Source: Candidatus Poribacteria bacterium (lineage in GTDB: Bacteria > Poribacteria > WGA-4E > WGA-3G). Taken from it: a stretch of 38,178 bases of DNA. This document shows, piece by piece, positions 24,642 through 38,091 of the stretch. Location: positions 1 through 38,178 of the forward strand of contig VXMD01000039.1 of NCBI GenBank assembly GCA_009841255.1, read 5' to 3'. Position 1 is the stretch's first letter. Each line of letters begins with the position of its first letter. The notes beneath the pieces are model-generated. The model was given only the letters and a program-made list of their open reading frames with translations, was not told where the DNA came from and made no database searches. The position numbers and the translations under genes are program-made.

Positions 24642-25811
24642 ATGATCCACTTTTTGCGAAGCTTGCACGTCTCCCGTTTTACGTTCCGACACCTGCAAGC
24701 GCACACGATTTTACTGTTCCTCATTGCGACGACTACACTCTTCAGCGATGTCTACCGTATCAGAAAAGGCGATACCCTTCTCATTGGGGTGATCGGACAG
24801 CCTGAGTATACGCACTCTGCACAGGTCCGTGAAGACGGCAGAATTAGTTACTTCAGTGGCGATCTTGAGGTTGCTGGACAGACAGTCGAGACGGTTAACC
24901 AACAGATTCGCGAGTTCCTCGTCTCAGAGAATCTTGTCAGAAATCCCGTCGTCATGGTATCACCGGTGCTACAAGAGAACGGTGTTTTTGTCGGCGGTGC
25001 GGTCAAACTTCCGGGACGTTATCCCATCTCCCCAGAAACCGACATCGGTTTATACCGTGCCATCACGCTCGCAGGCGGTATGGCAGAGAACGCCGATCAC
25101 CAAGTGGTGCAATTAATCCGCACCGATATGCCAGAAGAGATCGAAATCTATGATCTCTCACCGACCCATCCTTACCGCGATATCCGCGTCAACGTCAACG
25201 ATCTCGTGTTCGTCATGCCCCTGAGTTCTGTTGAAGTACAAGGACAGGTCCAGACTCCTGGCACACTTTTTATTCGGGGACAGATCGGTATCCGGGAGGC
25301 ACTTGCCCGCGCAGGCGGTCTCACCCAAGAGGCAGACCTGACCGCCATTGTGAGAGTTGAGAAAAACGGGAATCTGTCCGAATTCAATCTCTCCGAGCAA
25401 TTTTGGAAATCGTCACCCAACGGTGCGGCTTCACCCTCCTTATCGAACGGCGATGTATTGTTTGTCCCCAATGTTTTCAAGGTCGAGCCGATCTACGTAA
25501 CAGGCTACGTTCGCACACCGGGTGTCCAACGGGTTCGCGGACCCTTGAATCTCTCGCAAGCCGTCGCGCTCGGTGGCGGATTTGAGACATCAGCGAATCG
25601 TGAGGAGGTTATTATCCACCGCCATGACGGCACAACGCTGACAGTGCCTTTCATGTCCGATCCTGCGGATGGTGCGACGCAACAGACTTTGCTCTATCCA
25701 GGCGATATCTTAGAGGTGAAAAAGAAGTTTCAGGTGAATTGGAGTCTCGTCAGCACAGTCGCCTACATCGTCATCGCTGGCATCAGTCTCACACTCCAGT
25801 TGACGAGGTGA
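24642..25811 (+). CDS. Polysaccharide export protein with three SLBB domains
   Basis: 389 aa. A signal-like N-terminus (1-35) leads into a polysaccharide-export domain (YRIRKGDTLLIGVIGQPEYT, about 37-110). Three SLBB-type units follow (from about 113, 195 and 283; VGGAVKLPGRYPIS, VEVQGQVQTPGTLFI and YVTGYVRTPGVQRV). A C-terminal hydrophobic helix (about 368-386) follows. This resembles Wza-type outer-membrane channels or related Gfc/SLBB proteins. No other capsule genes are nearby. Its stop is 26 nt before the first gene of the candidate defence system. Confidence 0.85.
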   Translation: MIHFLRSLHVSRFTFRHLQAHTILLFLIATTTLFSDVYRIRKGDTLLIGVIGQPEYTHSAQVREDGRISYFSGDLEVAGQTVETVNQQIREFLVSENLVRNPVVMVSPVLQENGVFVGGAVKLPGRYPISPETDIGLYRAITLAGGMAENADHQVVQLIRTDMPEEIEIYDLSPTHPYRDIRVNVNDLVFVMPLSSVEVQGQVQTPGTLFIRGQIGIREALARAGGLTQEADLTAIVRVEKNGNLSEFNLSEQFWKSSPNGAASPSLSNGDVLFVPNVFKVEPIYVTGYVRTPGVQRVRGPLNLSQAVALGGGFETSANREEVIIHRHDGTTLTVPFMSDPADGATQQTLLYPGDILEVKKKFQVNWSLVSTVAYIVIAGISLTLQLTR

Positions 25812-25837: not shown

Positions 25838-26584
25838 ATGAATACCCCATCAAATCCATCATCAGAGTTTGCGCCAGGGCAAATTGTTTTCTTGAAAGCG
25901 GATCCGTCTGTTCGGGGTGCTGTCGTTGCGGTGTTCCCGAGCACTCCCGAAAGCCGAATTAACGTTTTTGCTGGTGGTAGAATTCAGAGTTTCCATGCTT
26001 CTCAGTTGCAGGTGAGCACGGCTTCAGATATTCTCAACCGGATTATTGATGCCCCCTCTGAGACAATTGAGCAAATTGAGGCGGTGTTACGATCCCCGAA
26101 GAAAAAGAGCAGTGATTGGGACGCTGATAGGCTCCTCAGCGAACATTTCGCACCCCCTGTCCGTTTTATCACCTATACAGGCATCAAGGATCTATCGAAA
26201 ATTGCGACGAAATCCTATCTACTCAGGGGGGTTGATGCCGACCATAAAAGGACTCAGATAGCGAAACTGCAGATATTATTTGCCTTTCCCAAAGAGAAGA
26301 TGCCGGACCTGAAACCCTATGTGAAAATCAGGGCAGCCTTGAAAGCACAGAAGCTTCAACCGCTTGAGGACCCAAACGAGCGGTTTCATGTTGATAACAA
26401 ACTGCTCCGGCAGGCGCGGAAAGACAAATCTAACGTCAACATTGTCACACGGACCGGACATGTCTTGAATGGACAGATCCAGCATTTTGATAAATATGTT
26501 CTTTATATGCGGATCGGCGGGAAGGTTGTGGTTGTGTATCGACACGGTTTGTTTGAGTTGACAATTGGGGAGCCAGAGGATTAA
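25838..26584 (+). CDS. Two-module bridging protein (helicase head domain + Hfq/Sm-like domain)
   Basis: 248 aa, no family recognised. Module A (about 10-58, FAPGQIVFLKADPS...SQLQ) looks SH3-like and is matched by the N-terminus of the SNF2 helicase two genes on (34 of 49 aligned residues identical). Module B (about 93-242) is matched by residues 3-152 of the sacsin-like ATPase. The end of module B (201-242, TGHVLNGQIQHFDKYVLYM and VVVVYRHGLFEL) resembles an Hfq/Sm fold with its VYKHA-type second motif; 24 of 41 residues are identical to the ATPase copy. I start at MNTP because the helicase gene has the equivalent start and spacing; an upstream in-frame ATG gives three more residues. Inference: a scaffold joining the two large enzymes. 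Confidence 0.8.
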   Translation: MNTPSNPSSEFAPGQIVFLKADPSVRGAVVAVFPSTPESRINVFAGGRIQSFHASQLQVSTASDILNRIIDAPSETIEQIEAVLRSPKKKSSDWDADRLLSEHFAPPVRFITYTGIKDLSKIATKSYLLRGVDADHKRTQIAKLQILFAFPKEKMPDLKPYVKIRAALKAQKLQPLEDPNERFHVDNKLLRQARKDKSNVNIVTRTGHVLNGQIQHFDKYVLYMRIGGKVVVVYRHGLFELTIGEPED

Positions 26585-27106
26585 CGTGTTGGGAACTGCA
26601 AGTAGGGTAGGTGCGGTTTCCGAACGGCACCATGGGTGTCAATTTAGGGGTCTTCCGTAGGTTGGGTTGAACGGAACTGAAAAGACAGATGTGGATGCTC
26701 AAAATACCTCTTAAATCTAACAGAGGGTCATCTACACTCAAGAGCGTAGTGAAACCCAACTTCATACCGTCAGAGTTCCCGAAACTGCAAAGGTGTTGGG
26801 TTTCACTAGGTGTCTGTTTGACGTAGGTTATAGGGAGCAAGCTTCATTTTTCGGTTACTTTTCAAGGTTTTGGTGGAGTCCGTTCAACCCAACCTACGAT
26901 ATTGAGATGCAGTTTTTGCTAAAATTGATACGCTCTGATATGGGATTAATGGTTGTTGTGTTCATTGTCTGAATCGCGGATTGACACGGATTTTACAGAT
27001 TTCGCGGATTTGGCATCTTTTGTATTCAATGGGGTCACTCCAACCTATCACAGGAGAGTTTTTTAAAATTGTCTAAAATTTAGAAGGGGAAAAAGGAAAT
27101 AGAAAT
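26585..27106. other. Intergenic region with a MITE-like inverted repeat
   Basis: About 520 bases that separate the first and second genes of the candidate system. It holds a GGTGCGGTTTC-type sequence near 26610, a 243-bp inverted-repeat element (26656-26898) and a GCGGATT-rich stretch (26972-27010). No gene or clear promoter is visible just before 27107. Confidence 0.6.
26656..26898. mobile_element. MITE-like element with nested inverted repeats
   Basis: The 20-bp ends CGTAGGTTGGGTTGAACGGA (26656-26675) and its exact reverse complement (26879-26898) bound the element. Inside is a second inverted pair, AGTGAAACCCAAC (26748-26760) and GTTGGGTTTCACT (26795-26807). There is no transposase. The sequence type resembles known interspersed GTTGGGTTTC repeats of other bacteria. 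No target duplication was identified. Confidence 0.75.
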
Positions 27107-30100
27107 ATGAGTGCAAATCCTTCTCCAGAGTTTTCACCAGGACAAATTGTTTTTTTGAAAGCCGATCCTTCTACTCGGGGTGCTGTTGTGGCAATTCTGC
27201 CCGGTATTCCTGAGAACCGAATTAATGTTTTCGTTAATGGAAACGTTCATACGTTTTATCCATCTCAGTTGCAACTTGAGGTTCAAGATGATTCTCGCGT
27301 CTTTTCATGTGATGACTTTCATGCCTATCTAACAGCACTTCAAATCCGATATCCCGGCTTATCAACCTTATACTCGCTCAATGCAGCGCGGGTTGACTTT
27401 ATCCCATATCAATACCGACCTGTTCTCAAATTTATCAAGGCAGATTTACCACGATTGCTTATCGCTGATAGTGTCGGTGTCGGAAAAACCATTGAAGCGG
27501 GATTGATTTTGCGCGAGTTACAAGCACGTAGCGATGTTCAAGCGGTTCTCATTATATGCCCCCGTCCGTTGGTAGCTGAGCAAAAGTGGCAGCGGGAGAT
27601 GAAACGATTTGACGAAAATTTTGAGCATCTGGACGGGGCTAAATTGCGATATTGCATCAATGAGATGCATCTGGATGGCGAGTGGCCCGAACAATACCAG
27701 AAGATTATTCTCCCGTATTCGTTATTGAATAACACACTCCTTTTTGGTCCTGAAGGGAACCGCAAACGAAAGCATGGCAAAGGGCTTTTAGATCTAGATC
27801 CACCACCGCACTTTGATCTGGTCATTGTTGACGAAGCACACCATATCCGAAATCAGGGGACAGCCAACCACGAAGGCGTGCGGTTTTTCTGTGAAAATGC
27901 GGAAGCAGCGGTATTTCTCACTGCAACTCCTATCCAACTCGACAGTCATGACCTATTCGTCTTGCTGAATGTTCTTCGCCCCGACTTGATTTTGGATGAG
28001 GAAAGTTTCAATCACATGGCAGAGCCGAATCCGTTCATTAATCAAGCGATTGACGCGGCGCGTGTGCAGGAAAGTGCATGGAAACAGACTGCAAAGGAAG
28101 CACTTGACCAAGCCTCTGAAACCGCTTGGGGACGATCGATTCTCAGGAACAATCCCGAATTTAAGCAGATTAGAGGTCGTCTTGCTAGCAGGCGTATCCT
28201 TCCTGAAGAACGTGTCCAGCTCATCACGGATATGGAGTCACTCTACACGTTTTCAGGGATAATCAATAGAACCCGCCGTCGCGATATCGGTGAATTTACT
28301 ATCCGCCGTCCGCGGACCGTAAAGGTTGAATTGACAACAGATCAAGAGGAACTGCATGAAGAGCTCCTTGAAACACAAAAGGAGATATTCCGCAGATTGC
28401 ATGGAGATCGGAGCGTTAACTTCATGATGACAACGCTCCGCCGACAGTTGGCAAGTTGCCTGCATGGACTCGAACCCCTACTTGAGGATATATTAACCCG
28501 CCGACTCGACGAACTTGAGTGGACAGAAGCTGATGCCATGGATGCGATGCCTTCGGAAGAAATTGCCACGCAAATTCTCGATCAGATCCTAACGCTTCTT
28601 GAAAAAGCGAAAACGCTTGATCCAGAGGATTTGAAGTTGGAGGCACTCCGAAAAGTTGTCCGCAGTCGGCAACGCCTCCGCAATAACAAAATTATGATTT
28701 TCAGCAGTTTTCGCCATACGCTTGCTTACCTTTACAAACACCTCGCAGCGGAAGGTTTTCGGGTCGGCCTCATCCACGGTGGTGTGCCGGATGAAGAACG
28801 CCTGGAACTCCGCAGTCGGTTTGAGAAGCCGAAAGCCGAGCGCGATAGTCTGGATCTCATGCTTTTTTCGGAAGTCGGGTGTGAAGGGTTGGATTACCAG
28901 TTCTGTGATTGCATCGTTAACTACGATCTGCCGTGGAACCCTATGAAGGTCGAACAACGCATTGGACGTATTGACCGCAAAGGACAAGAGAGCGAGAGTG
29001 TCAGTATCATCAACCTCATTACACCCGGAACCGTTGACGCGGACATCTATGAGCGGTGTCTCCTGCGCATCGGAGTCTTTGAGAGTGCCTTGGGTAGTAG
29101 TGAAGAAATTCTCGGTAAGATCACAACCGAGTTACGAAACATCGCGGAAAACTATGACTTGACGCAAGAGGAGCGAAGAGCCAAATTGCAACAGTTAGCT
29201 GATAATGAAATCCGATTAATACAGGAACAGGAGACACTTGAGGCAGAGCAATTGGACCTGTTCGGGCTCCATTTTTCTCATGATAGAATGGAGAAAGAGG
29301 TCGAAGAGGCTTCCAGTTTCTGGCTATCCTCGGCATCAATACAGAGGTTTGTTACGCGTTATCTTTCCCAGAAGATTGGGACAGAACAGGAGTTCATCCT
29401 CGGCGAAAAATCCCTCAAAACCCTTCGACTGTCTGAAGAAGCACGGAACGCCTTATTCGATGATTTGCAGCAATCCGATCGGGAAAAAACGCGAGTCTAC
29501 CGGGAGTGGGAAAAATGGTTAAGGGGATTAGACCCGCATTTATCTATAACCTTTGAAGCCGACTGCGCGACGCAGTATCCTGAGGCTGTGTTTATCATGC
29601 CGACACATCCATTGGTGAAACAGGCGGCAGCGGCGTTAAACACAGAACAAGAGGTCGTCACAACACTGAAGGTTAGAACCAATAAAGTTCCGCCGGGACG
29701 TTATGAATTTGCCATCTACCAATGGCGGTTTCTTGGCATTAGGGAACACTTAGTCCTTAAACCGATTGCTTTATCAGAGGTGTTGGTCCCGCATCTGAAC
29801 GATCTACTTGAAAGGGCAGAAGACGGCGATACACAGGAAAGTCAAGCATCCATCCAGAAGGATGCATTGGAAAAAACGCACCAGCACTTGTGGGCTGAAG
29901 CGCGTGACCAACATCTGGAACGGACACAGGCGTTAGCGAGTTATCGTAAAGAGAGCCTTTCGACAAGTCATCAGAAACGGGTAACACTGCTGAAAGAGAA
30001 GATTGCACAGGCAACCAATTCGAGGATTCAACGGATGCGACACAGTGAGCTTGCCAACGCTGAAGTTGATTATCGGCGGCGTATCCAAGCATTTGACGAG

Positions 30101-30184
30101 GCACTGGAGAAAGCAGACGTTACGGCGGAACCGGTGGCTTATGGGGTTCTGGAAGTATCTACCGATCCTTTACCTAGAACGTAG
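27107..30184 (+). CDS. SNF2/RapA-like helicase with an N-terminal head domain shared with the bridging protein
   Basis: 1025 aa. The head domain (about 8-60) is homologous to module A of the 25838 protein. The motor has Walker A ADSVGVGKTIEAGL (120-133; the Gly-rich loop usually reads DEVGLGKT or DEMGLGKT), DEAH (242-245), TATPIQ (272-277), HGGVPDEERL, and GRIDRKGQ (about 617-624, in helicase motif VI). A long helical C-terminal part (about 900-1010) looks coiled-coil. The order is like RapA/HepA, DrmD of DISARM and DpdE, but no other DISARM or Dpd gene is in the window. Spacing of 43 nt to the ATPase gene makes cotranscription likely. A ribosome site AAGGA lies 9 nt before the ATG. Confidence 0.9.
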   Translation: MSANPSPEFSPGQIVFLKADPSTRGAVVAILPGIPENRINVFVNGNVHTFYPSQLQLEVQDDSRVFSCDDFHAYLTALQIRYPGLSTLYSLNAARVDFIPYQYRPVLKFIKADLPRLLIADSVGVGKTIEAGLILRELQARSDVQAVLIICPRPLVAEQKWQREMKRFDENFEHLDGAKLRYCINEMHLDGEWPEQYQKIILPYSLLNNTLLFGPEGNRKRKHGKGLLDLDPPPHFDLVIVDEAHHIRNQGTANHEGVRFFCENAEAAVFLTATPIQLDSHDLFVLLNVLRPDLILDEESFNHMAEPNPFINQAIDAARVQESAWKQTAKEALDQASETAWGRSILRNNPEFKQIRGRLASRRILPEERVQLITDMESLYTFSGIINRTRRRDIGEFTIRRPRTVKVELTTDQEELHEELLETQKEIFRRLHGDRSVNFMMTTLRRQLASCLHGLEPLLEDILTRRLDELEWTEADAMDAMPSEEIATQILDQILTLLEKAKTLDPEDLKLEALRKVVRSRQRLRNNKIMIFSSFRHTLAYLYKHLAAEGFRVGLIHGGVPDEERLELRSRFEKPKAERDSLDLMLFSEVGCEGLDYQFCDCIVNYDLPWNPMKVEQRIGRIDRKGQESESVSIINLITPGTVDADIYERCLLRIGVFESALGSSEEILGKITTELRNIAENYDLTQEERRAKLQQLADNEIRLIQEQETLEAEQLDLFGLHFSHDRMEKEVEEASSFWLSSASIQRFVTRYLSQKIGTEQEFILGEKSLKTLRLSEEARNALFDDLQQSDREKTRVYREWEKWLRGLDPHLSITFEADCATQYPEAVFIMPTHPLVKQAAAALNTEQEVVTTLKVRTNKVPPGRYEFAIYQWRFLGIREHLVLKPIALSEVLVPHLNDLLERAEDGDTQESQASIQKDALEKTHQHLWAEARDQHLERTQALASYRKESLSTSHQKRVTLLKEKIAQATNSRIQRMRHSELANAEVDYRRRIQAFDEALEKADVTAEPVAYGVLEVSTDPLPRT

Positions 30185-30227
30185 TTATGTAAATAGATTT
30201 AGAAATTTAACGCAGAGGAATTTTAGA

Positions 30228-33200
30228 ATGAATCATGATTGGGATGCAGAGCAAGTGCTAACAGAGCATTTTGATGCACCTATTCGTCTTTACTTACACG
30301 AACGTAGCGTTGACTTAGAAAATATCAAAATTCATATTGATAACCGGGTACATGGTATTGATAGTGATGGGGCGCGTCACTCCTTACATAAAGATGATAT
30401 TCTTTTCGCTTTTCCGCTTGACAAAATGCCTTATGTGAGACCACATATCACAATGCTCAACCGTGTTAAGAGTCTCAGACTCAACCGCAAAAGCAATGCA
30501 CAAAATCGTTTTTGTATTGATGATAGTAAACTCACGACAGCCATCCAGAAAAATATAGTTCTTGTCACGCGTAGAGGCCACGTGATTCGTGGTGAGTTAC
30601 AAGCTTTTGATAAACTTCATTTGTTCATGCGAGTTGGTAGCAAAGTGGTACTTGTGTACCGACAGGGGTTATTCGCTTTTAAAACGAAAGTCAATGACCT
30701 CCGCAAATTACACAAAAAGCGTAAAAAATGGGTTGAAGCCAACCGCGAAAATAATTTTGAAGATGGTATTAAGCAGTTGCTCACGGAGTTGTACCCAGAC
30801 AACGCACACTTCATCTATGAACTTCTACAAAATGCTGAGGATGCAGGTGCTTCAGAAGTTAAGTTCGTTCTAAAAGAGGATAGTGCAACATTTGAGCACA
30901 ACGGGGATCGCATCTTCTCTCCAAAAGATGTAGATGCCATAACCAGCATTGGTTTTAGTACTAAAAGGGACGACCATACCAGCATAGGTAAGTTTGGTAT
31001 CGGCTTCAAAGCAGTGTTTGCTTACACGACCACGCCAGAGATTGAATCAGGCGAATTTCACTTTCGTATCCGCGACATGGTTGTGCCTGATACAGGAGGC
31101 CTGGCCCCCGGAAGTCTTGGTTGGGGGAAAACTCACTTTGTCTTCCCTTTTGGCAACCCCAAAAAACCTCCGGAAAAGGCATGTGAGGAAATAGAAACGA
31201 ATCTTCGGGAATTAAACGAGAACACTTTATTGTTTCTGAGCAACATCCGTAAAATAGAGTACCGGTTACCCGATTCAACTACGGGTTCGTTAGAGCGGAG
31301 AGAAAGCACAACTAACAGAAATCGGATTGAGATTTCTGTCATGCGCCCAGAAAACCCCTTGCCTGATTCTATTCATTATCTCCGATTTACAAAGGATGTT
31401 GACGTTCAAAACGAAGAGGGTCAACTTAAGCGTTGCCAAATCTCGGTCGCCTTTGGCACGGACAAATCCCGGAAAATTACACCCTTAAACCAAGGTCAAG
31501 TCTGCATCTATTTTCCTGCCGTAAAGGAGACTTCCAAGTTGCGGTTCCACCTGCATGCCCCTTTCGCTTCAACTGTTGCTCGCGATAGTGTGCGGGAGTG
31601 TCCAGCTAACGAAGAACTGCGGAATCATCTCGCGGAGTTAATAGCGGAGTCAATGCATACCATCCGCGATCAAGGCTTATTGGATGTAGAATTTCTTGCA
31701 ACCTTACCCAATAACAGGGATGATCTGCGTCCGTTTTACCTGCCCATCCAAGAACGGTTAATTGAGGAATTCAATACGGAAAAGTTAACGCCAGTGAAAC
31801 GGAGACGAAGTGAGCACGCAGCAGCTTCTGGCACCTATCGAGGTTCCAATGTATTGTCCGCTCTGATTAATGATGAAGATCTAGCAACACTTTTTGGCAA
31901 AGACCGTGATCAGCCTTTGTGGATTGCTAACCCACAACAACGTAACCAGCGAGAAGATAATTTCTTATCTAAGTTAGACATCACCCAATGGGAAATTGAA
32001 GACTTCATAGAGATATTAGAAACTCAGTCTGATGCAGTAAAAGAATGGCTAAAGGAAAAACCGAACGATTGGCACCAAGACCTATATGTGTTACTCGGTG
32101 ATTTCCTAAAGGTCCCAGCATCTCAATTTTATATGGAAGGTGGACGCAAAGAAAGGTTATCTAACCTTCGTATTGTCCGCTGCAACGATGGCGAATATAG
32201 AACCAGCAGCGAGTGTCACTTTCTTGATGATGTGGAATTCGAGGTTGGAAAAGAAAAAGCACAATCAGAGGAGTTCCACTACGTTGCTAAAGGGATCTAT
32301 TCATCTGGGCAAAACAAAAATCGACAGCAGAAAGCCCGTGAGTTCCTTGAAAAAATCGGTGTTTGTGAAGTTGATGAAGCTGAGCATATCAAAGTGATTT
32401 TAAGACAACGATACGAAGATCCATATACTATTATACCCTCTGAGCTGCACGAGGAAGATATGAAAAGATTCATTGCCCTTGTAGAAAAGGAGCCTGATAG
32501 AGTAGATTTATTTAAAAACTATCGCATCTTCAAAACTGTCGACTGCGGCTCTTTCGATGAGGGCTTTTACCACAATGCAAGTATAATTTTCTTGGATTCA
32601 CCGTATCTTGAGACAGGTTTGAAGGTCTATTATGAGGATGATGAGTACTGGGAGTATGTATGCACAGAAAGTCTTGATCCTTATCTCTCATTGGATCATA
32701 AAGAATACGACTTAGACTTAGAAAAACTTGGTAAATTCGCCGAGGCGTTAGGCGCAAAGACAAAATTGGAGGCTAATAAGCAAATAATTCCCGAGGATCA
32801 CCCTGAATGGAATAATCGTCTTGGATTGGGATCCGGGCATTGGCGACACACTGGAGTTGATGAAGATTATAGGATCCCTGAATTCCAAATTCTTCTTACT
32901 AATCCTTCAATTGCTAAGGCAAAACTATTCTGGCAAGCAATGTGTTCCCTACCTGAGCGTTCCCTAAAAGCAAGATTCCGTTGGAATCAATCTAATGAAC
33001 TCCATGAGGCAAATTCTACCCTTGTGCACGAATTAAGGAATGCAAAATGGGTTCCACAAAAAAATGGAAATTCTATTTCTTTTCTGCGACCCCGCGACGC
33101 TGTGAGAGACAATCTCCCCGCAGGCTTTCCTTACGATACAGGTCAAAAGTGGCTTGAAGCGATTGAGTTCGGTAAAACTGCCAAGCAACAGAGAACGGAA

Positions 33201-33857
33201 AATATTATCAGAGAGATTGAGCAAAACTCACGAAATCAACACGCGAAAGAGTTCGGATTTGACTCTGCAGATGAAGCTAATACAATGGCAAAAATCGCAA
33301 ACGAATTGAAGGAGGAGGGCAAAACACCTGACGAATTACTTAAGCAGCGTCTTGCCCAAAAACGACGTAAGGAATTGCTGATTATAGAACTTAGCGATGC
33401 CGAAGAAAAAGAATATGAAATTCGGGCAAGAAGTATTAGATCGACCGGTAACACAATTGACCCAAGTACTACTCTTAGAGCACTATATACGACAGATGAA
33501 GATAGAATGCATTGTCAGATGTGTTCAAAGGGTATGCCGTTCAAAAAGCGAAATAGCGATGAAGATTACTTTGAGGCAGTGGAAGCATTGGGAAAGGGAT
33601 ACTTTTTCAAAGAGCATGAAGCACAGTATCTGGCGTTGTGTCCAGAGTGCGCAGCAGAGTACAAAGAATATGTGAAGCGAGATCCGAAAGCACGAAAAAC
33701 TTTCCATGACGCTCTGAAAAATTCGGATAACCCTCAAATTCACTTGGTATCGAACGGGCGAAACATACGCATTTGGTTTGAAACCAAGCATTGGTGGGAT
33801 CTGAAAGCGGTTCTATACTATTACGAAAACATATATGACCCTGATGATGCTGATTAA
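30228..33857 (+). CDS. Sacsin-like GHKL ATPase with Hfq/Sm-like head and C4 zinc tail
   Basis: 1209 aa. Residues 3-152 are homologous to module B of the 25838 protein, with the Sm-like segment at about 111-152 (TRRGHVIRGELQAFDK, VVLVYRQGLF). A basic linker (155-172) leads into a GHKL ATPase of the sacsin type: YELLQNAEDAGA (197-208, Asn202 the Mg ligand) and GKFGIGFKAVF (254-264). The middle is long and unclassified. A zinc site near the C-terminus has C1096-x2-C1099 and C1138-x2-C1141. A longer frame runs back into the helicase gene, but the ATG at 30228 has AGAGGAA 7 nt upstream and lines up with module B. Base use looks AT-rich. Confidence 0.85.
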   Translation: MNHDWDAEQVLTEHFDAPIRLYLHERSVDLENIKIHIDNRVHGIDSDGARHSLHKDDILFAFPLDKMPYVRPHITMLNRVKSLRLNRKSNAQNRFCIDDSKLTTAIQKNIVLVTRRGHVIRGELQAFDKLHLFMRVGSKVVLVYRQGLFAFKTKVNDLRKLHKKRKKWVEANRENNFEDGIKQLLTELYPDNAHFIYELLQNAEDAGASEVKFVLKEDSATFEHNGDRIFSPKDVDAITSIGFSTKRDDHTSIGKFGIGFKAVFAYTTTPEIESGEFHFRIRDMVVPDTGGLAPGSLGWGKTHFVFPFGNPKKPPEKACEEIETNLRELNENTLLFLSNIRKIEYRLPDSTTGSLERRESTTNRNRIEISVMRPENPLPDSIHYLRFTKDVDVQNEEGQLKRCQISVAFGTDKSRKITPLNQGQVCIYFPAVKETSKLRFHLHAPFASTVARDSVRECPANEELRNHLAELIAESMHTIRDQGLLDVEFLATLPNNRDDLRPFYLPIQERLIEEFNTEKLTPVKRRRSEHAAASGTYRGSNVLSALINDEDLATLFGKDRDQPLWIANPQQRNQREDNFLSKLDITQWEIEDFIEILETQSDAVKEWLKEKPNDWHQDLYVLLGDFLKVPASQFYMEGGRKERLSNLRIVRCNDGEYRTSSECHFLDDVEFEVGKEKAQSEEFHYVAKGIYSSGQNKNRQQKAREFLEKIGVCEVDEAEHIKVILRQRYEDPYTIIPSELHEEDMKRFIALVEKEPDRVDLFKNYRIFKTVDCGSFDEGFYHNASIIFLDSPYLETGLKVYYEDDEYWEYVCTESLDPYLSLDHKEYDLDLEKLGKFAEALGAKTKLEANKQIIPEDHPEWNNRLGLGSGHWRHTGVDEDYRIPEFQILLTNPSIAKAKLFWQAMCSLPERSLKARFRWNQSNELHEANSTLVHELRNAKWVPQKNGNSISFLRPRDAVRDNLPAGFPYDTGQKWLEAIEFGKTAKQQRTENIIREIEQNSRNQHAKEFGFDSADEANTMAKIANELKEEGKTPDELLKQRLAQKRRKELLIIELSDAEEKEYEIRARSIRSTGNTIDPSTTLRALYTTDEDRMHCQMCSKGMPFKKRNSDEDYFEAVEALGKGYFFKEHEAQYLALCPECAAEYKEYVKRDPKARKTFHDALKNSDNPQIHLVSNGRNIRIWFETKHWWDLKAVLYYYENIYDPDDAD

Positions 33858-34716: not shown

Positions 34717-34971
34717 ATGATGGAACATCCAAATTGGACAGAAGCTGATTCGCGGAAATCCAATCAAATTTGGGCGGAATACCAAGATCAACATGACATC
34801 TCCGATCAAATTGGACAAACAGCCGGCATCGATCCAAAAAGCGGTAAGATTTGGTTCGGCGATTCCATTTCAGCGATCGTAGAAAATCGACGCGCTGAAG
34901 GAATGACTTCTCCCCTTTTCTTTCAACTCGTCGGCTTTAAAGCCTATTTTCGGAAGGGTGGGCATCAATGA
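34717..34971 (+). CDS. Small acidic/polar protein of unknown function beside the RM gene
   Basis: 84 aa. It reads WAEYQDQHDISDQIGQTAGI, then PKSGKIWFGDS, then TSPLFFQLVGFKAYFRKGG. The pattern loosely recalls DUF5678-type small proteins, but I am not certain. GGAGG lies 5 nt before the first of two adjacent ATG codons, so the gene is well supported. It ends 18 nt before the nuclease-methyltransferase, so cotranscription is likely; a regulatory or antitoxin role is only a guess. Confidence 0.7.
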   Translation: MMEHPNWTEADSRKSNQIWAEYQDQHDISDQIGQTAGIDPKSGKIWFGDSISAIVENRRAEGMTSPLFFQLVGFKAYFRKGGHQ

Positions 34972-34989: not shown

Positions 34990-37900
34990 ATGTCGAACCC
35001 CAACATCAAACCTACACACAAACCGATCAAAACCTATTACGCTGAGTTAGAAGAATACGAACGTCTCGGCGAGCGGAACGAAGGGACCGTCCGCGCCGCA
35101 TTCCAAGGTCTGCTCCAGCACTATTGCCACCAATCCAATCTCACGCTTCTCTGCGAAAAAACACACTATACACCCGAGAAAAGACGAGTAACGCCCGACG
35201 GCGAAATCGTCGACACCTTCAAATTGCCTTACGGCTACTGGGAGGCTAAGGACACACAGGACGACCTCCACGTTGAAGCCTCCAAAAAGTTTGCCGCAGG
35301 CTACCCATCAGAAAACATCGTTATCCAATCCCCCACGCACGCGCTCCTCTATCAACACGGGGAGTTGCAGCTGGACTTAGACATTACGGATCCGAGAAAC
35401 CTCGTCCGCGTGCTTCAGGGATTTTTTGCGTATCAGGAGGCGAACATCGCCGCATGGCATACCGCTGTCACCGAATTTAGGGAGACAGTGCCAGAACTCG
35501 GCGAAGAATTGGCAACCCTCATCGAAACGGAACGCCAAAACAACACGCGATTTCAGGAGGCGTTCACGAATTTCCACAAACAGTGCCAAGTTTCCATTAA
35601 TCCGAACCTCTCCATTGCCGCTGTAGAGGAGATGCTGATCCAGCATCTGTTGACCGAGCGTATCTTCCGCACTGTCTTCAACAACCGTGACTTCACACGC
35701 CGCAATATCATCGCACGCGAGATCGAGAACGTCATCGACGCGCTTACCTCACAGACGTTCGATAGGAACCAGTTCCTCCAAAGTTTAGACCCGTTCTACG
35801 TTGCCATCGAGCAGGCTGCGGCAACTATCAGGGATTTCTCACAGAAACAAGGATTCCTCAACACCGTCTACGAGCAGTTTTTTCAAGGCTTCTCGGTCAA
35901 GGTCGCAGACACGCACGGTATCGTCTACACACCGCAACCGATCGTCGATTTTATGGTGAAAAGCGTTGAACATATCCTCAATACCGAGTTTAACCGTTCC
36001 CTTTCGGACAGCGGTGTGAACATTATCGACCCGTTCGTTGGGACCGGTAACTTCATCGTCCGCATCATGCAAGCACTCGACCCTATCTCACTGGAACGCA
36101 AATACACCGCCGATCCGCCGGAACTCCAGTGCAACGAGGTGATGCTCCTACCCTATTATATCGCTAACCTCAACATAGAACATGAGTTCTATACGGCAAC
36201 AAACCGGTATATCCCCTACGAAGGTTTGTGCCTCGTGGATACCTTTGAGCTGGCAGAGGACCGGGAGCAGTTACAGCTGTTCACGCCTGACAATACCGCA
36301 CGCGTCGAGAAGCAGAAGGAATCCGAGATGTTCGTCGTTATCGGCAATCCGCCCTATAATGTCGGGCAAATTAACGAGAACGACAATAACAAAAACCGAG
36401 AGCATACGGCGATGGATAAGTCGATTAAGGACACGTATGCCAAAGATTCCAAAGCTACAAACAGAAACAAACTTTATGATCCTTACGTCAAGGCGATTCG
36501 ATGGGCGTTGGAGCGGATTGGCGAGGAAGGCGTTGTCGCTTTTGTAACGAACAACAGTTTTATTGAAGGTTTGGCGTTTGACGGCATGCGGAAACACCTC
36601 GCCACCGATTGCGATGCGATCTATATGTTGGATTTGGGTGGAAATGCACGGAAAGGGTTAAAGGTTTCCAATGCGAATGTGTTCGGAATTCGGGTAGGGG
36701 TGAGCATCAATCTGTTTGTAAAAAAGAAGGATAACACGTCTGAATCCGCGCGTATCTTTTACTACCGCACTGATGACCTGTGGAACAGGGAACAGAAATT
36801 CGACTTTTTGAATGAACGTGAACATGCAGGCGGTATTGTGTGGGAATCCATTCAGCCAGACGATCGACATACATGGCTTACAAAAGGACTCCACACCGAG
36901 TTTGATGACCTTATTCCCATGGGAACCAAAGCCGCAAAAGCACAAAAAGGTGAAGTAAGAGATGTAATTTTCAAAACCTATAGCAACGGTGTGAAAACGA
37001 ATCGGGATGCATGGACTTACAACTTCAATCGAAACGCACTGACTGAAAACATAAGCAGAATGATTCAAACTTATAACACCGAAGTTGCTCGCTGGGAACA
37101 GAGAATAGATCGAGAGGCTGCCCTTGACGATTTTGTGTTATCTGATGACACGAAAATTAAGTGGAGTAGAAATTTAAAGCGCGAATTAAGACGAAACAAA
37201 ATCGCTGAGTATGCTGAACACAAAGTTAGACCTTCCCTTTATCGTCCTTTCACAAAATCGTACTTATTTTTTGATACCATTATGAATAATGATGTCTCTC
37301 ACTTCCCTTCGATCTTTCCTATACCAGAGACAGAAACAGAAAATCGAGTGATATGGCTTAAGGTCGGAAGTGAGTGGTCAATGTTTGGATTGATGGTTAA
37401 CCAAATTCCTGATTTACTACCCCAAGGTGGTTCCCAATGTTTCCCCTTCTACATCTACAATGAGGACGGCACGAATCGCAGCGAAAACATCACCGATTGG
37501 GCATTAACAGCGTTTCAATCCCACTATCAAGACGACACCATCACCAAGTGGGACATTTTCCACTACACCTACGGACTCCTGCACCACCCTGATTATCGTG
37601 AGACATACGAGGCGAACCTTAAGCGTGATTTGCCACACATCCCGTTTGTCGAAGATTTCTGGGGATTTGCGAAGGCAGGGGCACGACTCGCAGAAATCCA
37701 CGTCAACTACGAATCGCAACCCGAATACGATGGACTCCAGTTTATCCAAAACCCAGACGCCCACCTCGATTGGCGTGTGGAGAAGATGAGACTCTCCAGA
37801 GACAAAACCTCGCTTATCTATAACGAATTCTTGACGCTATCGGAGATTCCATCGAGGACCTATGATTATCGACTCGGCACGCGCTCTGCATTGGAGTGGG

Positions 37901-38091
37901 TCGTGGACCAGTATCGTGTGAAAACGGACAAACGGAGCGGCATCGTCAATGACCCGAACCGTGCCGATGATCCGCAGTACATCGTCAAACTAATCGGTCA
38001 GGTCATCACCGTCAGTTTAGAGACATTGGACCTTGTTGAAAACTTGCCTGCCTTCGGGGTTAAAAACCCCTCCCACAAAAATAGTTTGTGA
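34990..38091 (+). CDS. Single-chain nuclease-methyltransferase, type ISP-like without a helicase motor
   Basis: 1033 aa. An N-terminal PD-(D/E)XK-like nuclease has Asp70/Asp75 and WEAK (Glu85, Lys87). A helical coupler follows (about 110-320). An N6-adenine methyltransferase has motif I DPFVGTGN (347-354) and motif IV NPPYN (453-457). The C-terminal third (FYIYNEDGT, TYGLLHHPDYRETYE, LPHIPFV) matches type ISP target-recognition domains. Type ISP enzymes carry a superfamily 2 helicase between nuclease and methylase; I find no Walker A here, so it resembles a type IIG form. One chain would both cut and protect host DNA. The ribosome site is weak. It lies downstream of the helicase-ATPase genes. 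Confidence 0.88.
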   Translation: MSNPNIKPTHKPIKTYYAELEEYERLGERNEGTVRAAFQGLLQHYCHQSNLTLLCEKTHYTPEKRRVTPDGEIVDTFKLPYGYWEAKDTQDDLHVEASKKFAAGYPSENIVIQSPTHALLYQHGELQLDLDITDPRNLVRVLQGFFAYQEANIAAWHTAVTEFRETVPELGEELATLIETERQNNTRFQEAFTNFHKQCQVSINPNLSIAAVEEMLIQHLLTERIFRTVFNNRDFTRRNIIAREIENVIDALTSQTFDRNQFLQSLDPFYVAIEQAAATIRDFSQKQGFLNTVYEQFFQGFSVKVADTHGIVYTPQPIVDFMVKSVEHILNTEFNRSLSDSGVNIIDPFVGTGNFIVRIMQALDPISLERKYTADPPELQCNEVMLLPYYIANLNIEHEFYTATNRYIPYEGLCLVDTFELAEDREQLQLFTPDNTARVEKQKESEMFVVIGNPPYNVGQINENDNNKNREHTAMDKSIKDTYAKDSKATNRNKLYDPYVKAIRWALERIGEEGVVAFVTNNSFIEGLAFDGMRKHLATDCDAIYMLDLGGNARKGLKVSNANVFGIRVGVSINLFVKKKDNTSESARIFYYRTDDLWNREQKFDFLNEREHAGGIVWESIQPDDRHTWLTKGLHTEFDDLIPMGTKAAKAQKGEVRDVIFKTYSNGVKTNRDAWTYNFNRNALTENISRMIQTYNTEVARWEQRIDREAALDDFVLSDDTKIKWSRNLKRELRRNKIAEYAEHKVRPSLYRPFTKSYLFFDTIMNNDVSHFPSIFPIPETETENRVIWLKVGSEWSMFGLMVNQIPDLLPQGGSQCFPFYIYNEDGTNRSENITDWALTAFQSHYQDDTITKWDIFHYTYGLLHHPDYRETYEANLKRDLPHIPFVEDFWGFAKAGARLAEIHVNYESQPEYDGLQFIQNPDAHLDWRVEKMRLSRDKTSLIYNEFLTLSEIPSRTYDYRLGTRSALEWVVDQYRVKTDKRSGIVNDPNRADDPQYIVKLIGQVITVSLETLDLVENLPAFGVKNPSHKNSL

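Follow-up and report, generated by a model that had tools for sequence, protein, structure and literature searches.

An SNF2 helicase and a sacsin-type GHKL ATPase encoded next to each other in a genome of Candidatus Poribacteria form a conserved pair that recurs in distant taxa, and the 248-aa protein encoded ahead of them (P0001), which joins a homologue of the helicase head to a tandem Hfq/Sm module, is not tied to that pair. The window, by which we mean the whole analyzed stretch of 38,178 nucleotides, is probably a mosaic hot spot of defence genes built around a two-gene, restriction-like core, to which P0001 has been added as a separate and optional accessory. The host Poribacteria are sponge associated. 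The features of the window are as follows.

24642 to 25811, plus strand: SLBB polysaccharide-export protein (Pfam Poly_export/SLBB), left anchor of the hot spot
25838 to 26584, plus strand: P0001, 248 aa, predicted Tudor-like barrel and tandem Hfq/Sm module; start 27 bp past the SLBB stop
25865 to 26011, plus strand: P0001 module A (residues 10 to 58), SNF2-head homologue, predicted Tudor/KOW-like SH3 barrel
26123 to 26290, plus strand: module B of P0001, first Sm/Hfq-like fold (residues 96 to 151), alpha plus five strands in the predicted model
26396 to 26566, plus strand: module B of P0001, second Sm/Hfq-like fold (residues 187 to 243), by Pfam Hfq and Foldseek to Hfq
26656 to 26898, no strand assigned: MITE-like element bounded by perfect 20-bp inverted repeats, between the P0001 and helicase genes
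27107 to 30184, plus strand: SNF2 helicase, DrmD/RapA-like, 1,025 aa, motifs GVGKT, DEAH, TATP, and QRIGR intact
27128 to 27274, plus strand: helicase head, module-A homologue, matching P0001 module A
30228 to 33857, plus strand: sacsin-type GHKL ATPase, 1,209 aa, beginning 43 bp past the helicase stop
30237 to 30674, plus strand: N-terminal module-B homologue of the ATPase (residues 4 to 149), by BLASTP to P0001
33513 to 33650, plus strand: C-terminal CQxC...CPxC finger of the ATPase, McrA-like HNH fold without the HH motif
34990 to 38091, plus strand: type ISP restriction-modification enzyme (Pfam Type_ISP_C, 1e-98)

The open reading frames of P0001, the helicase, and the ATPase lie where a sequence-only reading of this DNA had placed them, and its description of P0001 as a fusion of modules that occur apart in the two large neighboring genes was confirmed. 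Module A is identical to helicase residues 8 to 56 at 34 of 49 aligned positions, exactly the figure claimed, and BLASTP returned 38 identities over 60 residues (E = 3e-23). Module B, taken as P0001 residues 93 to 239, is homologous to ATPase residues 4 to 149 (60 of 148 identical; E = 3e-33 by BLASTP), in agreement with the first 150 residues named earlier. Compared with 1,000 shuffles each, module A scored 206 (shuffled mean, 24; maximum, 55) and module B 289 (mean, 31; maximum, 53); both scores are far beyond the shuffled ones, and the similarities to the heads are therefore real rather than due to chance. At the DNA level, module A alone matches the neighboring genes (74% over 160 bp), and no match was obtained between module B of P0001 and the ATPase head.

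AlphaFold predicted module A to be a five-strand beta barrel (pLDDT of about 72 to 87), for which Foldseek gave matches with weak E values to the UvrD-CTD Tudor domain, NusG, and the 53BP1 Tudor domain. Module B was modelled with low confidence in the full 248-aa protein and better when run by itself, where one of five models converged (pLDDT of 81.5 in that model). In model ma4e00e26bcbe, module B consists of two Sm/Hfq folds in tandem, the first mostly at a pLDDT of 82 to 90, and each copy has the alpha helix and five strands by which the Sm/Hfq superfamily fold is recognized. Its best Foldseek matches were Hfq structures, with TM scores of up to 0.92 by target. The C-terminal half exceeds the Pfam Hfq cutoff (38.6 versus 27 bits) and matches Bacillus subtilis Hfq by phmmer (E = 9e-5). 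The label Sm-like is thus appropriate for P0001, as are SNF2/RapA-like for the helicase and GHKL, of sacsin-like type, for the ATPase. Although the second half of module B scores and folds as Hfq, P0001 differs from the Hfq/Sm RNA chaperones in that it has tandem Sm folds within a fused protein, and module B is far below the NCBIfam Hfq equivalog cutoff (TIGR02383; 33.5 versus 61.7 bits). We infer that P0001 most likely uses its Hfq folds to bind RNA or single-stranded nucleic acid and its barrel to dock on a partner, which could be the helicase, RNA polymerase, or nucleic acid.

When 85 poribacterial genomes were searched with Pfam Hfq, almost all matches fell in frames of 150 aa or more. Matches in the genome of the window (G000) lie at C39:26396-26557, C83:31129-31254, and C32:306026-306196. 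Apart from a 117-aa frame at a contig edge and, in G005, an 84-aa frame that is broken, a near-canonical Hfq length was seen only in G002 (96 and 135 aa). In Poribacteria, Hfq may be replaced by tandem Hfq-like proteins.

The head of the helicase is common to its rhizobial orthologues as well, and the best PADLOC profile, DrmD, covers helicase residues 10 to 891 with the head included, which indicates that module A is an old component of the helicase rather than a peculiarity of this locus. While DrmD of DISARM is the nearest PADLOC family (2e-111), the helicase is below the NCBIfam DrmD cutoff (306.6 versus 610 bits). No candidate for the DISARM core proteins DrmA and DrmB was present among the large open reading frames scanned around the helicase, and a genome search for MZB (PF09369) yielded one match, below the cutoff and on another contig.

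The ATPase matches Pfam SACS (4e-20) and has intact GHKL motifs, with ELLQNAEDA and GKFGIGFKAVF at the ATP site. The ATPase of G073 has an N-terminal module B too; related ATPases in G082 and G047 have none. The invariant positions of the C-terminal finger are CQxC, YF, E, LCPxC, and H, and a profile of nine such sequences matched the McrA HNH domain (6ghc_A; E = 8e-8). The finger does not have the HH motif of McrA; it is a degenerate and apparently dead HNH, which probably binds DNA. Within PADLOC, the best family of the ATPase is TmtA of Tiamat (PDLC03972; 6e-64; residues 157 to 948). Tiamat is a single-gene system, whereas the ATPase of the window is paired with a helicase, and its HNH-like finger falls outside the TmtA-aligned part. 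The helicase is near DrmD and the ATPase near TmtA, neither of them as a full member, and the earlier impression that the combination corresponds to no described system has held up in PADLOC.

A helicase orthologue is encoded in 17 of the 85 poribacterial genomes surveyed. Two of these loci reach contig edges; in all of the 15 that could be evaluated, a sacsin-type ATPase follows the helicase, either directly (12 loci) or with one intervening gene (3 loci). The two genes are also adjacent on plasmids of Rhizobium, Ensifer, and R. bangladeshense (identity of 46% for the helicase and 29% for the ATPase) and on one of Methanomethylovorans (27% for the helicase), as well as on an IMG/VR contig whose helicase has an additional Swt1-like HEPN domain. 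ATPases of the distant pairs are as divergent as 22%. For DrmD-like helicases that are more distant, encoded on plasmids of Sphingobium and Leptolyngbya, no adjoining gene was annotated as such an ATPase. These data support the helicase and the ATPase as one conserved unit, distant taxa included. Adjacency in distant taxa, which had been proposed as a check on all three genes, was found for the pair; in the rhizobia and the archaeon, no module-B protein accompanies it.

Several further features were observed around these pairs. On the IMG/VR contig, the HEPN domain lies ahead of the SNF2 head (L097:7482-11075), and the neighboring genes appear restriction-like by eye. An unnamed gene of about 180 aa overlaps the helicase start on three of three rhizobial plasmids (L091:13309-13839, L092:11280-11834, and L094:11303-11833), and the single copy scanned had no Pfam or PADLOC match. 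In one locus, a 619-aa protein is encoded between the helicase and the sacsin gene (L086:5871-7727), with 48% identity to the sacsin finger and a Ribosomal_L12_N match.

Restriction operons that combine a GHKL ATPase with an SNF2 helicase are a known kind. Iyer, Abhiman and Aravind described GHKL ATPases beside superfamily II helicases in mobile neighborhoods resembling restriction-modification (R-M) systems, and their MORC/paraMORC operons include a SWI2/SNF2 group with HNH nucleases (2008; PMC2292703). The window likewise places a GHKL ATPase next to an SNF2 helicase; unlike in the MORC/paraMORC operons, its GHKL protein is of the sacsin type and fused to an apparently dead HNH finger, and that paper makes no mention of sacsin (PMC2292703). 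With regard to the MORC and paraMORC 1 to 5 sequence families, the comparison covered the best Pfam match of the ATPase, which is SACS. For the pair as such, neither PADLOC nor NCBIfam gave a full match to a named defence system, and the literature searched (sacsin, SNF2, GHKL, and Tiamat) contained no account of it. As far as that literature goes, the sacsin-helicase pairing and the repeated Hfq-like folds in poribacterial defence enzymes are novel forms of kinds already known.

By analogy with the GHKL-plus-helicase R-M operons (PMC2292703), the helicase and the ATPase would work jointly on invading DNA, with the helicase as a motor translocating on it and the ATPase serving as clamp or switch, and the pair may have an anti-phage role. 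Since no intact nuclease motif was recognized in the pair, this model leaves the restriction step unexplained. In Poribacteria, the Tudor/KOW-like barrel, a typical head of the helicase family, was joined once to a tandem Hfq/Sm module, and the resulting P0001 would tune whatever defence enzyme sits in the hot spot. We tentatively propose, with more doubt than confidence, that in bacteria and archaea the SNF2-sacsin pair constitutes a mobile anti-phage system not described before, and that in Poribacteria it and other defence enzymes have acquired Hfq-like modules through which they respond to RNA such as phage transcripts, with P0001 as a free-standing RNA-sensing adaptor.

The A-B fusion was found in 5 of the 85 genomes (G000, G067, G075, G079, and G081), and the other four proteins are 67 to 72% identical to P0001 over module B. 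In the trees, module A of the five fused proteins forms one clade (support, 95/93) within the SNF2 heads that is not sister to the head of the window's own helicase. Module B of P0001 clusters with stand-alone proteins of G053, G066, and G074 (100/99), and that of the ATPase is set apart on a long branch of its own. The fusion has a single origin, in an SNF2 lineage other than that of the neighboring helicase. At least one stand-alone protein (G074, locus L009) retains the linker motif PSETIEQLEALL, and a loss of module A in this protein is therefore likely. Between P0001 and the four other fused genes, dN/dS was mostly 0.14 to 0.33 for modules A and B and the linker, although one closely related pair was uninformative for module A due to few silent changes. 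These values indicate purifying selection on the linker as well as on both modules. A recent local duplication of the neighboring heads was rejected on the basis of the trees and the lack of DNA similarity in module B, and a pseudogene or relic was rejected on the basis of dN/dS.

The trees also bear on a deletion scar, in which an array of helicase, sacsin, and module B collapsed to a functionless head and tail. The fused module A does fall among SNF2 heads and module B near those behind sacsin C termini, and one deletion in a gene order like that of locus L011 (helicase, sacsin, module B) would suffice to produce the fusion. However, dN/dS is well below 1 for modules A and B and the linker in nearly all pairs, and the frames are intact in five species. 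As a claim of no function, the scar is largely refuted, and we regard this explanation as very improbable; a deletion may account for the origin of the fusion but not for its persistence. Purifying selection, together with the high identity of both modules to the heads, speaks for a decoy that mimics both heads and fills their docking sites, inhibiting the pair or serving as its rheostat. Against it, the P0001 type is conserved where the helicase is missing, and its module B is far nearer to the stand-alone proteins than to the ATPase head, which makes such a competitor quite improbable.

P0001 had been predicted to hold the three proteins together as one complex, bridging helicase and ATPase. 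The identity that both heads share with P0001, the gene neighborhood, and the several ways in which module B is attached to sacsin all favor a scaffold of this kind. Nevertheless, no helicase orthologue is present anywhere in G067, G075, G079, and G081, i.e., in four of the five fusion genomes, an outcome that the sequence-only reading had itself named as speaking against the complex. Conversely, the pair occurs without any module-B protein in G082, G083, G043, and G047, in the rhizobia, and in the archaeon. At the genus level (38 genomes), module-B proteins of the P0001 lineage are found together with the helicase in seven, and this co-occurrence is not significant (7 of 11 versus 11 of 27; P = 0.18, one-sided Fisher test). 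Within the window, the MITE-like element separates the P0001 and helicase genes. A scaffold is therefore unlikely; what survives of the predicted complex is the helicase-ATPase unit and a link between module B and sacsin, not P0001 as an obligate component.

Module B has many other fusion partners across the phylum, among them GmrSD type IV restriction enzymes, many of which also carry a cold-shock domain, and UvrD helicases with GIY-YIG and in some cases S1 domains; S1 and cold-shock domains, an RNase H-like exonuclease and, as judged by eye, an N-terminal HTH-like region were also found joined to it. Rosetta-stone inference is weakest for promiscuous domains, and given the promiscuity of module B, the A-B fusion alone predicts little. 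A true link between module B and sacsin is possible all the same, because fusions to sacsin recur: module B is at the N terminus in the window and G073, at the C terminus in G048 and G042, and in frame behind sacsin, after a TAA stop, in G057 and G052. The in-frame TAA lies between sacsin and module B in L011 (9965-9967) and L012, MAG loci that are nearly identical to each other; in L019 and L079, sacsin and module B form one unbroken frame. Individual examples of the other architectures are the GmrSD and UvrD-GIY-YIG proteins of loci L055 to L064, with module B at the C terminus and several with S1 or cold-shock domains, and the proteins at L024:8166-9194, L023:8530-9342, and L069:44-1342, with cold-shock, HTH-like, or S1 domains. 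Most poribacterial genomes contain frames of about 320 aa that resemble the cold-shock/module-B type. No relatives of module B were found on viral contigs or phages, and on plasmids, helicases aside, there was one weak Hfq-like match only.

The surroundings of the pair are shared among related loci. In almost every one of them, an SLBB gene comes shortly before either the module-B gene or the helicase, and the P0001-type gene nearly always follows it. The type ISP enzyme, a frequent right-hand resident, is present in most related loci; it is fragmented or a mere remnant in L074, L077, and L071, which represent several species. Ahead of its gene, the window contains an unnamed 84-aa open reading frame (34717 to 34971) that is 88% identical in the loci of G066 and G083 and 70% identical in one other locus. 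The genome contains three further long copies of the MITE-like element (74 to 81%).

P0001 illustrates how Rosetta-stone predictions can go astray when a domain is promiscuous. Within a single phylum, Hfq-like folds have repeatedly been attached to restriction enzymes and helicases, a testable instance of RNA-binding parts being taken up into DNA-directed defence. Should the pair prove to be a defence unit, the GHKL-plus-helicase restriction systems would gain a sacsin-type branch, and the sacsin ATPases, whose human member carries mutations in an ataxia, could be approached through bacteria.
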